From Phormidium tenue FACHB-1050 (GTDB lineage Bacteria > Cyanobacteriota > Cyanobacteriia > Pseudanabaenales > Pseudanabaenaceae): a stretch of 64,000 nucleotides of DNA. Made by a program: the position numbers and the translations under genes. Positions 57,304-61,657 of this stretch are shown here, piece by piece. The notes under the pieces are model-generated. The model saw only the letters and a program-made list of their open reading frames with translations, was not told where the DNA came from and did no database searches. The stretch spans positions 1-64,000 of the forward strand of contig NZ_JACJQY010000020.1 of NCBI RefSeq assembly GCF_014696925.1, written 5' to 3'. Position 1 is the stretch's first letter. Every line of letters begins with the position of its first letter.

Positions 57304-58143
57304 ATGGCAAGCCCAATTCAGTGGTATCCAGGTCATATCGCCAAAGCTGAAAAGCAGTTGTTAGAACAACTAAAATTGGTGGACGTGGTCATTGAGGTGC
57401 GTGATTCGCGCATTTTGATGTCTAGTAAGCATCCCAAAATTGAAAAATGGGTGGAGGGAAAGTCGCATATTTTAGTATGCAATCGTATTGATGCCATTTC
57501 CTCGACGGTGAAAACGCAATGGATGCGCTGGTTTACCGAGCAGGAACGCATGGCATATTTTACCGATGCACAGGCTGGCAAAGGTATGGTGGATCTACTC
57601 AAGGCGGCTCAAGTCGCAGGTGAAAAGGTCAACGAACGTAGAAAAGGACGGGGAATGCTACCGCGTCCTGTGCGGGCTGTAGTAGTTGGTTTCCCTAATG
57701 TCGGCAAATCGGCGCTAATTAATCGGTTACTCAAGAAAAAAGTGGTTGCTAGTGCCAATAAACCGGGGGTTACCCGCCAGTTACGTTGGATCAGGATTTC
57801 TGATGAGATCGAGTTGCTGGATACTCCTGGAGTAATTCCACCATTGCTGCACGATCAAGATGCAGCGATGAAGCTTGCCATTTGCGATGATATTGGTCAG
57901 GCAGCTTACGACAACGTATTAGTGGCGGCAGAAGCAGTGGATCTGCTGATCCAGTTAAATGCAAAGCTGAGCAGCCGTTACATCATTGATCCAGCAACGG
58001 TAACTTCAGGAATCGAGTATATCCACGAGGTTGCAGCCTTAAATAAGTTTCAAGGTGATTTAGATAAAGTTGCAAGGCTAATTTTATATGATTTTCGCAA
58101 AGGGAAATTAGGGGCGATCGCTCTAGAAATGCCACCTCACTAA
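57304..58143 (+). CDS. ylqF: Ribosome biogenesis GTPase YlqF (RbgA)
   Basis: Circularly permuted GTPase needed for large-subunit maturation. 279 residues, family length. Order of motifs is G4-G5-G1-G2-G3: CNRID (60-63), then GFPNVGKS (129-136), GVTRQ with the G2 threonine, and LLDTPG (G3, 173-176). N-terminal IQWYPGHIAKAEKQL and VDVVIEVRDSRI are signatures. C-terminal domain DFRKGKLGAIALE is normal. ATG 57304. Confidence 0.95.
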   Translation: MASPIQWYPGHIAKAEKQLLEQLKLVDVVIEVRDSRILMSSKHPKIEKWVEGKSHILVCNRIDAISSTVKTQWMRWFTEQERMAYFTDAQAGKGMVDLLKAAQVAGEKVNERRKGRGMLPRPVRAVVVGFPNVGKSALINRLLKKKVVASANKPGVTRQLRWIRISDEIELLDTPGVIPPLLHDQDAAMKLAICDDIGQAAYDNVLVAAEAVDLLIQLNAKLSSRYIIDPATVTSGIEYIHEVAALNKFQGDLDKVARLILYDFRKGKLGAIALEMPPH

Positions 58144-58239
58144 CATTTATCGTGAAGTAGACATGCGCTCAAGTGTGGGCTAAAAGCTCAAGCCCTTACA
58201 TTCATAGTTAAGGTGTCGGCTTACCCGCCACCACTCTAA

Positions 58240-58455
58240 TACGTTTAGGACTCACGCAAAAGAGGGCAAAGTAAGGGCAATTCATGAATTGCCCTTACTT
58301 TGCTACACAGGTTTTATAGCTATAGCTACCTGTATCAGGACAAGTCAAAACCCAAATAGTGTGATGCGGCGCGAAGCGCCGCATCACACTATTTGGGTTT
58401 TATGTCCTAACAAGAATGGCGACAGCTATAAGTCGTTTTGCGTAAGTCCTAACGT
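58240..58455. repeat. Outer inverted repeat interrupted by family A
   Basis: Arms TACGTTTAGGACTCACGCAAAA (58240-58260) and CGTTTTGCGTAAGTCCTAACGTT (58434-58456 region) are complementary with few mismatches. Between them lie the J2 palindrome and A8. Confidence 0.7.
58315..58430. repeat. Family A palindromic element (copy A8)
   Basis: TATAGCTATAGCTACCTGTATCAGGACAAG ... AGTGTGATGCGGCGC-GAA-complement ... TAACAAGAATGGCGACAGCTATA, a canonical copy nested in another inverted repeat. Confidence 0.88.
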
Positions 58456-58469
58456 TATTTAATTTGCGA

Positions 58470-58585
58470 TCCTTAACTTACAGAAATTATCGATCAAACT
58501 AACTACAAGATATTTTTTGCAAGTATTGCTTCGCAATGCTTGCAAAAAATATCTCGGTTTGGTTTTAAACGCAAAACGCTGTAAT
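58470..58585. repeat. Family F element (copy F3)
   Basis: CTACAAGATATTTTTTGCAAG-TATTGCTTCGCAATG-complement ... TCTCGGTTTGGTTTTAAACGCAAAACGCTGTA; related to F1 in inverse orientation. Confidence 0.6.
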
Positions 58586-58673
58586 AGTATTCTGTAGTCC
58601 ACTTCAGTGGACTTTAGCTTTTAGCTAAGAACTTGAGTTCTTGGCTCATTTTTAATTAGCATTACTCAACCAG

Positions 58674-59597
58674 ATGACAAGCAAAATTTATTTAAAAGGC
58701 GTAAAAGCCTATGGATATGTAGGATATCTCCCTGAAGAGAATGTATTAGGGCAATGGTTTGAGGTTGATGCAACACTATGGGTCGATTTTGAGCAATCTA
58801 CCCATAGCGATGAAATTGAAGATACGGTTAACTATATTTCCTGTATTCGCAAGATCGAAACTTTAATACAGACACAGAAATTTAAACTGATCGAGAGATT
58901 AGTTGGCGCGATCGCTGATAGTCTTTTGGAAGATCCCAAAATCGCACAGGTGGAGGTGAAGGTAATCAAGCATCCTCCAATACCCAATTTCCTAGGCTCA
59001 GTCGCTGTAGAAATTGTGCGATCGCGTTCTCACGCTCCAGTTACAAATGCCGCAAAAACCACTCACACAAAACTAGAAACAATTCCTAAAACTGAATCTA
59101 TCCCTGAAGCTAAACCTACAAGCCCAAAACCTCAAGCTGGAGATTCAGGAACATCAAAAATTATTAGTATCCATACGGATGGTGCTTGCTCTAAAAATCC
59201 AGGACCTGGCGGTTGGGGTGTAGTTGTTCACTTCTCTGATGGTAGTACCAAAGAGCTTGGTGGTGGGCTGCGCGAAACCACCAATAATCAAATGGAATTG
59301 CAAGGTGCGATCGCTGCTTTAGAATTTCTCGCTACTCACAAACAATCCACTCCTGTCGATCTTTATACCGATAGTAAATATGTACTTGACGGGATTACTA
59401 AATGGATTAAGGGTTGGAAGAAGAATGGCTGGAAAACCAAGGATAATAAGCCCGTCAAAAATCAAGAATTTTGGCAACAACTCGATCCCCTCAATACATC
59501 AAATATCCGATGGCATTGGGTAGAGGGACATTCTGGCGATCCTGACAACGAACGTTGCGATGCGATCGCCCGCAGCTACACCGCCAAATATGCCTAA
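58674..59597 (+). CDS. Fused dihydroneopterin aldolase and ribonuclease HI
   Basis: 307 residues holding two complete enzymes in one frame. Residues 1-115 are FolB (dihydroneopterin aldolase, folate synthesis): [74 protein letters not shown], with the catalytic region Glu21/22 and Lys99. A Pro/Thr/Lys-rich linker (about 118-160) follows. Residues 161-307 are RNase [78 protein letters not shown]; the catalytic D169, E209, D233, D296 and H286 are all present. No stop or frameshift lies between. ATG 58674. I know of no such fusion; it could be a recent gene join or a processed polypeptide. Confidence 0.93.
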
Positions 59598-59625
59598 AAA
59601 ACGATTTTGGGAATTATATTATGAG

Positions 59626-59757
59626 TAAGTGTCCAAGGGGGTAACGAGAAATGGTCATTCCAGCAATTTTTGAGGTGCTTTAACGCTGATTTGTCTTGAT
59701 TTAGGTCATTTGATGAGCCTGAAACGCACCAAATTCGTACCCCCCTTGGACGGTTAC
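59626..59757. repeat. Family K mobile element with 9-bp target duplication
   Basis: 132 bp with imperfect terminal inverted repeats TAAGTGTCCAAGGGGG / GTAACCGTCCAAGGGGGG. TATTATGAG stands at 59617-59625 and again at 59758-59766. No coding capacity. A single copy in the window. Confidence 0.78.
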
Positions 59758-59801
59758 TATTATGAGACTTTTTTATCTTTTTTTAGATCCTAATTTGTTT
59801 T

Positions 59802-60524
59802 ATGAGTGAATTAAATTCAGGCTATTTTTCACATTTTTCTTCTAATCGATTAATAGAATATATAGAAAAAATTTTACTTTTTGAGTATTTAGAGACAGGT
59901 TCTCCATGGGTAAGCAAAAATGAATTATATTTATTATTCGCTAAGAAACATGGGATTGAATTAAATGATATAATTAAGAATTTAGGATATGAGAATGAAT
60001 TAAAAAAATTCTTAATTCAAAGCAAAAGTTTCTCAATATATCCTACACAATCATATGATGATTTTTATGTTGCTATGTTGCAGATTGTTGTTCCAAATTC
60101 GGATAAGAAGGCATCTTTAACAAAATTCACAATCAAGAAACCTTGGAAAGCTGATGGGCGTTTAATAAATTTTTTGAAATCTGAAGGTGCAGTTGAAACA
60201 GGATATTTGCAATCGGGCAAATCCAAGCTCAAAAGTACACAGCACAAGAAAAAATTAGAGATTCCGATATGTATAGAATCAATTGATGATCTACAAGTAG
60301 CTTTAGTAGAGATTATTGACAACACTTTAGAAGAGACTGGTTATAGTACTATTAGTTCTTCCGAATTAAGTAAAAGTTTTTTGAAGTATTATCAAAAGCC
60401 GATAAGAAGTGTAGTGAAAAACGTATCTCCTAACAAAAAACTGATTGAGATAATTGAAGAAATTCCAAACTTTAATATCCAAAAGTCTAATAATGGTTGG
60501 AGTATCAGTAAAATGAATAATTGA
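59802..60524 (+). CDS. Protein with two LOTUS/OST-HTH-like domains
   Basis: 240 residues, AT-rich relative to its neighbours. Residues about 17-95 (RLIEYIEKILLFEYLETGSPWVSKNELYLLFAKKHGIELNDIIKNLGYENELKKFLIQSKSFSIY) and about 165-238 (DDLQVALVEIIDNTLEETGYSTISSSELSKSFLKYYQKPIRSVVK...LIEIIEEIPNFNI-NNGWSI) share a helix-helix-strand layout like the LOTUS (OST-HTH) winged-helix domain that binds RNA or proteins. Bacterial LOTUS domains are usually joined to a NYN nuclease, which is absent here. A basic linker (about 120-160) separates the two. Similarity is by pattern only. No RBS stands out before ATG 59802. Confidence 0.55.
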   Translation: MSELNSGYFSHFSSNRLIEYIEKILLFEYLETGSPWVSKNELYLLFAKKHGIELNDIIKNLGYENELKKFLIQSKSFSIYPTQSYDDFYVAMLQIVVPNSDKKASLTKFTIKKPWKADGRLINFLKSEGAVETGYLQSGKSKLKSTQHKKKLEIPICIESIDDLQVALVEIIDNTLEETGYSTISSSELSKSFLKYYQKPIRSVVKNVSPNKKLIEIIEEIPNFNIQKSNNGWSISKMNN

Positions 60525-61136: not shown

Positions 61137-61162
61137 GATGTTATAGCTGGTCAGTGAATGGC
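61116..61162. repeat. 18-bp perfect inverted repeat at the higA 3' end
   Basis: GCCATTCACTGACCAGCT (61116-61133), 11-base spacer, complement (61145-61162). The right arm encodes the unusual end of the higA frame and its stop follows at the spacer. Confidence 0.7.
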
Positions 61163-61419
61163 AATGTTTTATCACTATCGTACTGAATTGACAGCGAATG
61201 CCCATCATAATCAGCATCCTCAAGTCTAGCGATCGCTGATTGCTTCGTACCAATGCGATCGGCAAGTTCCTTTTGATTCAATCCTCTTGCAGTTCTTGCC
61301 TCATAGATAAGTTGAGCCACCACAGCATTAAGCGAAGCTTCCCTCACTAAATCCTCAAGTACAGGATCGTTGCCAGTCAAATTATCAATAATTTTGAGGG
61401 CATCACTAGTCTTAGCCAT
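61141..61419 (-). CDS. HigA-type HTH antitoxin with altered C-terminus
   Basis: 92 residues. LVREASLNAVVAQLIYEARTARGLNQKELADRIGTKQSAIARLEDADYDGHSLS is the HTH-XRE core of HigA/type II antitoxins of the HigBA (RelE-like) sort. Family members continue from GHSLS with a helix and strand (about 20 residues, LQRIA-type); here IQYDSDKTLPFTDQL follows, encoded partly by an inverted repeat, so the end has been replaced. DNA binding may survive, toxin binding less surely. ATG 61419 overlaps the toxin gene end by eight bases, the normal toxin-antitoxin order for higBA. Confidence 0.78.
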   Translation of the reverse strand: MAKTSDALKIIDNLTGNDPVLEDLVREASLNAVVAQLIYEARTARGLNQKELADRIGTKQSAIARLEDADYDGHSLSIQYDSDKTLPFTDQL

Positions 61420-61657
61420 TATCTAAATCCTCTTGATAAGTATGAACATTTGGATTCTCCTCAAACTGACACTTACGTTCAATCGCTCTCTCAATATCTA
61501 CAATGGGAACTCGATCTGTATCTTTGGTAATTGCATGAGCGAGAATTGCAATATTTTGACCATCAAAAAAGTACAAAATGCGATACTGAATGTGAATATG
61601 CTTAGCCCGCAGTTCATAGATTCCATTGCGTAAATAATCTGCTGCGGGTCTTCGCAA
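61412..61657 (-). pseudogene. HigB-type (RelE fold) toxin, N-terminus missing
   Basis: RRPAADYLRNGIYELRAKHIHIQYRILYFFDGQNIAILAHAITKDTDRVPIVDIERAIERKCQFEENPNVHTYQED is the C-terminal two-thirds of a HigB/RelE-like mRNA interferase. The normal first 40-50 residues are absent, and an in-frame stop lies just before the TTG at 61657, so no intact frame exists. The catalytic basic residues in the C-terminal part remain, but the fold is incomplete. Inactive toxin next to a damaged antitoxin. Confidence 0.8.

Follow-up and report, generated by a model that had tools for sequence, protein, structure and literature searches.

RNase HI is a housekeeping enzyme that guards against RNA-DNA hybrids; FolB (dihydroneopterin aldolase) takes part in folate synthesis. 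To see the two in a single chain, with no other copy of either found in the genome of Phormidium tenue FACHB-1050, is unexpected. The chain is encoded in a stretch of 64,000 nucleotides, called the window here. The author of a preliminary description of this DNA knew of no such example, and this is uncontradicted in the open-licence literature, where no paper on a FolB-RNase HI pair was found as judged by title and the start of the abstract. However, a kindred fusion is known, the RNase HI-CobC protein of Actinomycetales (MSMEG_4305, Rv2228c). According to the accessible part of the report on that protein, both domains are under selection, the linker is variable, the RNase is slower and removal of CobC has little effect on growth; drift was concluded by its authors (PMC7466739). 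The window fusion is similar in that a variable linker ties an RNase HI to a vitamin-synthesis enzyme, with both under purifying selection. In RNase HI-CobC the RNase is N-terminal and the partner is CobC, whereas the partner in the window is FolB, which is itself N-terminal. Furthermore, M. smegmatis has two RNase HI genes, as far as the same part of the report goes, whereas the window fusion is the only one found in its genome (PMC7466739). Slippage, which is proposed below for two sister genera (g4 and g7), is unmentioned for RNase HI-CobC in that part of the source (PMC7466739).

The 270-aa protein of PDB entry 2cg8 resembles the window fusion in having an N-terminal FolB that is followed by another enzyme, which by its chain name is presumably FolK. 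FolK acts in the same pathway as FolB, whereas RNase HI does not. Single-domain RNase HI (PDB 2rn2, which we take to be that of E. coli, and others) and single-domain FolB (PDB 1dhn, presumably that of S. aureus) differ from the fusion in being separate proteins; each half of the fusion aligns with them over its domain.

For the sister genera, the closest described case is the dnaX gene. In the accessible parts of two reports, a run of nine A's (A9) in dnaX of Thermus thermophilus slips in transcription, about half of the product being shortened, the slippage site of E. coli dnaX is A_AAA_AAG, and nine nucleotides is the length from which A/T runs are seen to be avoided in a large proportion of genomes (PMC3711429, PMC1088944). 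The frameshift candidates in one of these reports include some whose two halves form a fusion elsewhere, in other genomes, and 6% frameshifting is given there for a phaP protein/dehydratase cluster (PMC3711429). A9 or A_AAA_AAG, as given in these partial sources, is common to dnaX and the g4 and g7 junctions, and the g4 folB frame reads A AAA AAG. The slippage described there for dnaX alters the length of one protein, whereas a slip in g4 or g7 would join two enzymes of unrelated pathways. The joining of different proteins by frameshift may have a precedent in the phaP/dehydratase cluster, to the extent covered by the accessible part of the report (PMC3711429).

The fusion gene and its product

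The features of the fusion and its upstream neighbour, in window coordinates, are as follows.

57304..58143, + strand: 50S ribosome-binding GTPase gene, upstream neighbour
58674..59597, + strand: folB-rnhA fusion gene, 307 aa, single open frame from ATG to TAA
58686..59015, + strand: FolB (dihydroneopterin aldolase) domain, residues 5-114, Pfam PF02152
59028..59150, + strand: linker rich in Thr/Pro/Lys/Ser, residues 119-159, predicted disordered, without in-frame ATG/GTG/TTG
59163..59576, + strand: RNase HI domain, residues 164-301, Pfam PF00075

The locus had been read as one uninterrupted frame carrying a complete FolB and a complete RNase HI joined by a Pro/Thr/Lys linker, and this was borne out by an open frame from start to stop and by family scores above the cut-offs for both halves. 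PF02152 (FolB) scored 109.8 bits against a cut-off of 31.8 and PF00075 (RNase_H) 150.6 bits against 25.8, and the NCBIfam equivalogs TIGR00525 (folB) and NF001236 (ribonuclease HI) scored 92.1 against 72.15 and 188 against 160. The linker described earlier corresponds to residues 119-159. D169, E208, D233, H286 and D296 form what we take to be the D-E-D-H-D catalytic motif of RNase HI; four of these residues had been named correctly, while the glutamate had been placed at 209, which is a leucine. Together with Y54, E74 and K99, presumably the catalytic Tyr, Glu and Lys of FolB, they are all invariant in an alignment that took in 23 of the 31 listed fusions. A stretch of 13 residues that we take to be the basic handle region, a motif of E. 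coli RNase HI, aligns with the equivalent stretch of solved RNase HI chains. In the AlphaFold2 model of the fusion (23 alignment rows; mean pLDDT 78.8, pTM 0.52), blocks of both domains had pLDDT values of 64-96, and residues 120-159 of the linker fell below 50.

Further copies of folB or rnhA were looked for elsewhere in the window's genome. No second FolB was found in a family search and no second RNase HI in an RNase_H family search, in which the fusion was the only match; RNase HII is encoded separately. The fusion is the sole source found for both FolB and RNase HI in this genome. It is real and very probably acts as one bifunctional protein, the domains of which are most likely independent, because the linker is disordered and RNase HI-CobC provides a precedent. 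The aldolase activity and the cleavage of RNA-DNA hybrids are predicted from the sequence.

The upstream GTPase gene, which is presumably YlqF-like, precedes the fusion in 10 of the 19 loci of the window's genus tested; eight loci have about 5 kb of upstream DNA without it and one (L035) is cut by the contig end. This linkage is common but not fixed, and the genes downstream of the fusion vary between loci. The GTPase gene and folB are separated by 530 bp, in which three long hairpins (17-20 pairs) lie, at 58266-58303, 58351-58397 and 58508-58554. Terminator-like sites in 58100-59850 numbered 11 compared with 1.4 in shuffles, several of them being one hairpin counted repeatedly. The two sigma-70-like sites found were both inside the fusion gene and fewer than in shuffles (2 vs 4.6), thus no promoter was assigned. 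Directly after the fusion, at about 59630-59765, an inverted repeat (gtccaaggggg / ccccccttggac) was seen by eye, with its arms about 100-120 bp apart, perhaps a small mobile element. It is followed by a 240-aa ORF that has no Pfam match (59802-60524), an XisI protein (PF08869; 60605-60949, + strand), and a likely toxin-antitoxin pair on the minus strand (61141-61657), in which a Gp49-like protein (DUF891; 61412-61657) is presumed to pair with an HTH protein (61141-61419).

Arrangement of folB and rnhA among relatives

The whole protein served as the query against 38 genomes of the order (E up to 1e-15), and the arrangement of the two genes was then established from the DNA. The two genes are fused in one ORF in 30 of the 38, namely all 26 genomes of the window's genus (g1, taken as Pseudanabaena), G029 of g5, and G026, G033 and G058 of g2. 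They overlap in different frames in three genomes (G028 of g4; G031 and G060 of g7), are adjacent in one (G032 of g8), with in-frame stops and an ATG of its own for rnhA, and are unlinked in four (G027 and G034 of g3; G030 and G059 of g6). G034, G030 and G059 are fragmented drafts with folB and rnhA on different contigs, and in G027 both genes lie on one contig, about 0.2 Mb apart. That the genes can do without the join is shown by these four genomes and by G032, in which rnhA has a start of its own. That the halves are separate in some relatives, or apparently joined by slippage only in others, was invisible from the window alone.

Other FolB-RNase HI architectures were looked for beyond the family as well. 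When 388 genomes of the class were searched with a profile, G054 was the only genome outside the family, among the matches listed, with a full-length match in an open frame; a fusion with a short linker shows up in such a search as two separate matches, and further fusions in the class may have been missed. G109 also gave a full-length match, but with a stop between the halves. In G109, G119 and G085 (contigs L053, L055 and L054), folB adjoins an rnhA with its own ATG. An exact peptide-pattern scan of one genome per species in 84,980 species gave 124 stretches that encode a relative, and every locus matching both halves among the best 80 of these 124 was cyanobacterial. As for additional RNase HI copies, G054 carries a second one, G002 and G018 have one extra weak match each (E about 1e-6), none was found in G028 and G031 at E up to 0.001, and none in G060 at E up to 1e-12 among the matches listed.

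The linkers are rich in Ser, Thr, Pro, Ala and Lys, and their length varies between species with the frame kept (32-60 aa in g1, 11-18 aa in g2, 52 in G029 and 57 in G054). In eight pairs of g1 genomes, the dN/dS of RNase HI was 0 to 0.053 throughout. That of FolB was 0.02-0.08 in seven pairs and 0.36 in one pair with dS 0.04, and that of the linker was 0.21-0.63 in seven pairs and 2.5 in one pair with dS 0.03. These values indicate that both halves are under purifying selection. The RNase had been described as no stray pseudogene, and its active site is indeed intact; it is in one frame with FolB in 26 of 26 genus genomes, with no stop or frameshift interrupting the junction, and a pseudogene or frameshift artefact in the window is ruled out by this. 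Chance is excluded as the source of the open fusion frame, because all 26 genomes have one frame, the linker lengths vary with the frame kept and both halves are under purifying selection. The earlier interpretation of an in-frame fusion is supported; both active sites are intact and the fusion is conserved throughout the genus.

It is quite improbable that two proteins are made after all, by proteolysis of the linker or from an internal start. A long disordered linker could be cut, but no conserved cleavage motif was visible by eye in the fusion alignment. The internal start, which the preliminary description had raised, is not conserved: there is no in-frame ATG, GTG or TTG between the FolB end and the RNase start in 22 of the 26 genus genomes, the window gene included, or in 25 of the 31 fusions overall, and among the other four genus genomes the position is common to the sister pair G023/G025 only. 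One of the few candidate starts is a TTG in the G001 linker, which has a ribosome-binding-like sequence. A run of eight A's in or near the linker of the in-frame fusion of G002 (L011) might leak into other frames.

A9 junctions in two sister genera

The three genomes with overlapping genes belong to two genera (one genome of g4, two of g7), and all of them have a run of nine A's where the two frames overlap.

L117, 4590-4598: A9 run at the folB-rnhA overlap
L118, 971-979: A9 run at the folB-rnhA overlap
L119, 992-1000, counted on the minus strand: A9 run at the folB-rnhA overlap

The RNase frame is -1 relative to folB in G028, G031 and G060. In G028 the folB frame ends with TCA AAA AAA AAG TCG TAA, and the RNase frame opens 22 nt before this end, so that any frame switch must fall in those 22 nt, which contain all nine A's. 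In the two g7 genomes, G031 and G060, the sequence in the folB frame is GCT AAA AAA AAA TCC, and this frame stays open beyond the codon for the RNase's first catalytic Asp; the RNase frame opens within the A run, giving an overlap of 37 nt that holds seven of the nine A's. Ahead of this Asp, the RNase frame of all three genomes is without ATG, GTG, TTG or CTG, and only ATC is present. Therefore, RNase HI of g4 and g7 needs a slip from folB or an ATC start, or it goes unmade. The two RNase frames tested at the A9 junctions reached 152.7 and 156.4 bits in Pfam (cut-off 25.8). A comparison of the two g7 species gave a dN of 0.134 and a dS of 1.477, which indicates selection on the RNase frame in g7, the genus to which these figures apply, g4 being a single genome.

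Runs of at least nine A's are rare on the coding strands of these genomes. In stop-to-stop ORFs of at least 150 aa, which overlap one another and include some spurious ones, there were two in 319 kb of ORFs for G028 (400 kb sample), none in 192 kb for G031 (132 kb sample) and one A10 in 162 kb for G060 (161 kb sample). When the codon order of the junction was shuffled, A9 appeared in 208 of 20,000 cases for g4, the tail of which is Lys-rich and favours A runs, and in 31 of 20,000 for g7 (G031 only); these chance figures, like the run counts, were computed after the runs had been seen. A stimulating RNA structure at A9 was also considered, and none above shuffles was found in four folds of the G028 and G031 stretches (z 0.16 to 0.96). 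This lack of structure disfavours structure-stimulated ribosomal frameshifting, though not transcriptional slippage.

Several readings without slippage are together unlikely. The A9 could be a sequencing or assembly error for A10, and hence a plain fusion, as errors are frequent in homopolymers and the g7 assemblies are drafts, with 150-190 contigs. However, exactly A9 occurs in three genomes of two genera, one of which (G028) consists of 2 contigs and is rated 100% complete, and the two g7 species share A9 despite divergence around it (80% nt identity in folB, 76% in rnhA). RNase HI could start at the rare ATC, since ATC codons are present before the Asp, but in g7 the ATC comes directly after the A run, with no room between for a usual ribosome-binding site. 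That the RNase is unmade is at odds with the selection on it in g7. From the frames and runs in these three genomes, a -1 slip of RNA polymerase or ribosome on A9 probably yields the same product in g4 and g7, and FolB alone and FolB-RNase HI would then come from one gene. If this reading is true, it adds a case of slippage joining two enzymes of unrelated pathways, and the A9 junctions are the most testable new point of the analysis.

Origin and possible role of the join

Six of the 26 g1 rows were used in the family trees and four in a joint analysis of HemC, FolB and RNase. In the first RNase tree, with long rows present, g7 was placed outside all other members of the family. The RNase of g6 (L125, L127, i.e., G030, G059) was of a different type and clustered with those of G042 and G056 and with the second one of G054. 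After nine long or odd class rows were dropped, and g6 for the RNase, the family came out as a single clade for either domain (SH-aLRT 95 and 99, short search). A species marker that we take to be threonine-dehydratase-like was discarded, being present in only 13 of 26 genomes at E 1e-80, and a presumably HemC-like protein present in 26 of 26 was used instead. In the joint tree g1 grouped with g5 (100/98) and g7 with g2 (95/92), g4 and g8 being unplaced; in the tree of HemC alone g5 grouped with g3, g7 and g2 (80/84) and the g7-g2 pairing was not recovered. In neither tree was the chosen outgroup separated from the other rows by a single branch. The A9 states of g4 and g7 perhaps do not come from one immediate ancestor, although these groupings are not firm.

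AU tests did not reject the in-frame fused genera g1, g5 and g2 as one clade (p 0.43, 0.46), nor G054 and the whole family as one clade (p 0.39, 0.32). Because the tests leave both standing, the fusions may come either from several gains or from a joined ancestor with later losses. The idea that the G054 fusion is a copy of the in-frame fusion of the family was unsupported: a clade of G054 and the in-frame fused rows was rejected for the RNase (p 0.0004), and for FolB the result was not significant (p 0.085).

The fusion most likely arose from folB and rnhA as neighbours on one strand, and such neighbours persist in relatives; the order of events is one that we infer. The join would fix one RNase HI to each FolB subunit. 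Enzymes of the FolB family form octamers, and RNase HI could accordingly be displayed as several arms on a FolB oligomer core. The family offers a natural series, from unlinked and adjacent genes to genes overlapping at A9 and fused ones, on which selection and drift of odd enzyme fusions can be tested.

A serious rival on the usefulness of the join, to which we give slightly less than an even chance, is that it has no purpose of its own, having arisen by a chance join of neighbouring folB and rnhA, been tolerated through a flexible linker and then maintained by drift and descent. The fusion matches actinobacterial RNase HI-CobC in its variable linker and in the differing rates of its two domains; for RNase HI-CobC, drift was judged most probable in the accessible part of the report (PMC7466739). 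The unlinked relatives, moreover, live without the fusion. Against this, all 26 genus genomes retain the join, a fusion also occurs outside the family, in G054, whose RNase is not in the in-frame fused group by the AU test above, and g4 and g7 apparently came to the join by a different route, A9. Such recurrence is unproven, however, as the clade of family and G054 that was not rejected fits an ancestral joined state with losses too.

Our tentative proposal, for which the odds are clearly below even, is that the join is selected for in Pseudanabaenaceae, by in-frame fusion in some genera and programmed A9 slippage in others, the latter setting the ratio of FolB to FolB-RNase HI, with the FolB oligomer scaffolding RNase HI. 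A related reading, which we regard as unlikely, holds that the join is functional as a scaffold, that the oligomer clusters several RNase HI domains and so raises avidity for RNA-DNA hybrids, and that slippage in g4 and g7 sets the number of arms per oligomer. The oligomeric nature of FolB enzymes speaks for it, and FolB might replace a C-terminal tail that many cyanobacterial RNases HI have and that the fused RNases of the family and G054 are without. On the other hand, RNases with neither tail nor FolB exist (G049, G051, G057 and the unlinked g3).

This tail is a conserved stretch of about 75 aa (REVRVAQLRNLIETLRIADE...SAVTSRGDNWVWRNWVVSRVRREGNQILWQLERVD), seen in the following loci.

L053, 1115-2119: RNase HI with C-terminal tail
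L054, 5367-6389: RNase HI with C-terminal tail
L175, L176, L056, L059, L060, L062, L063: RNase HI with C-terminal tail

No Pfam match over the cut-off was obtained for the tail in the two that were tested. By eye it is helix-turn-helix-like, and weak relatives of it occur in other genes in 4 of the 38 order genomes.
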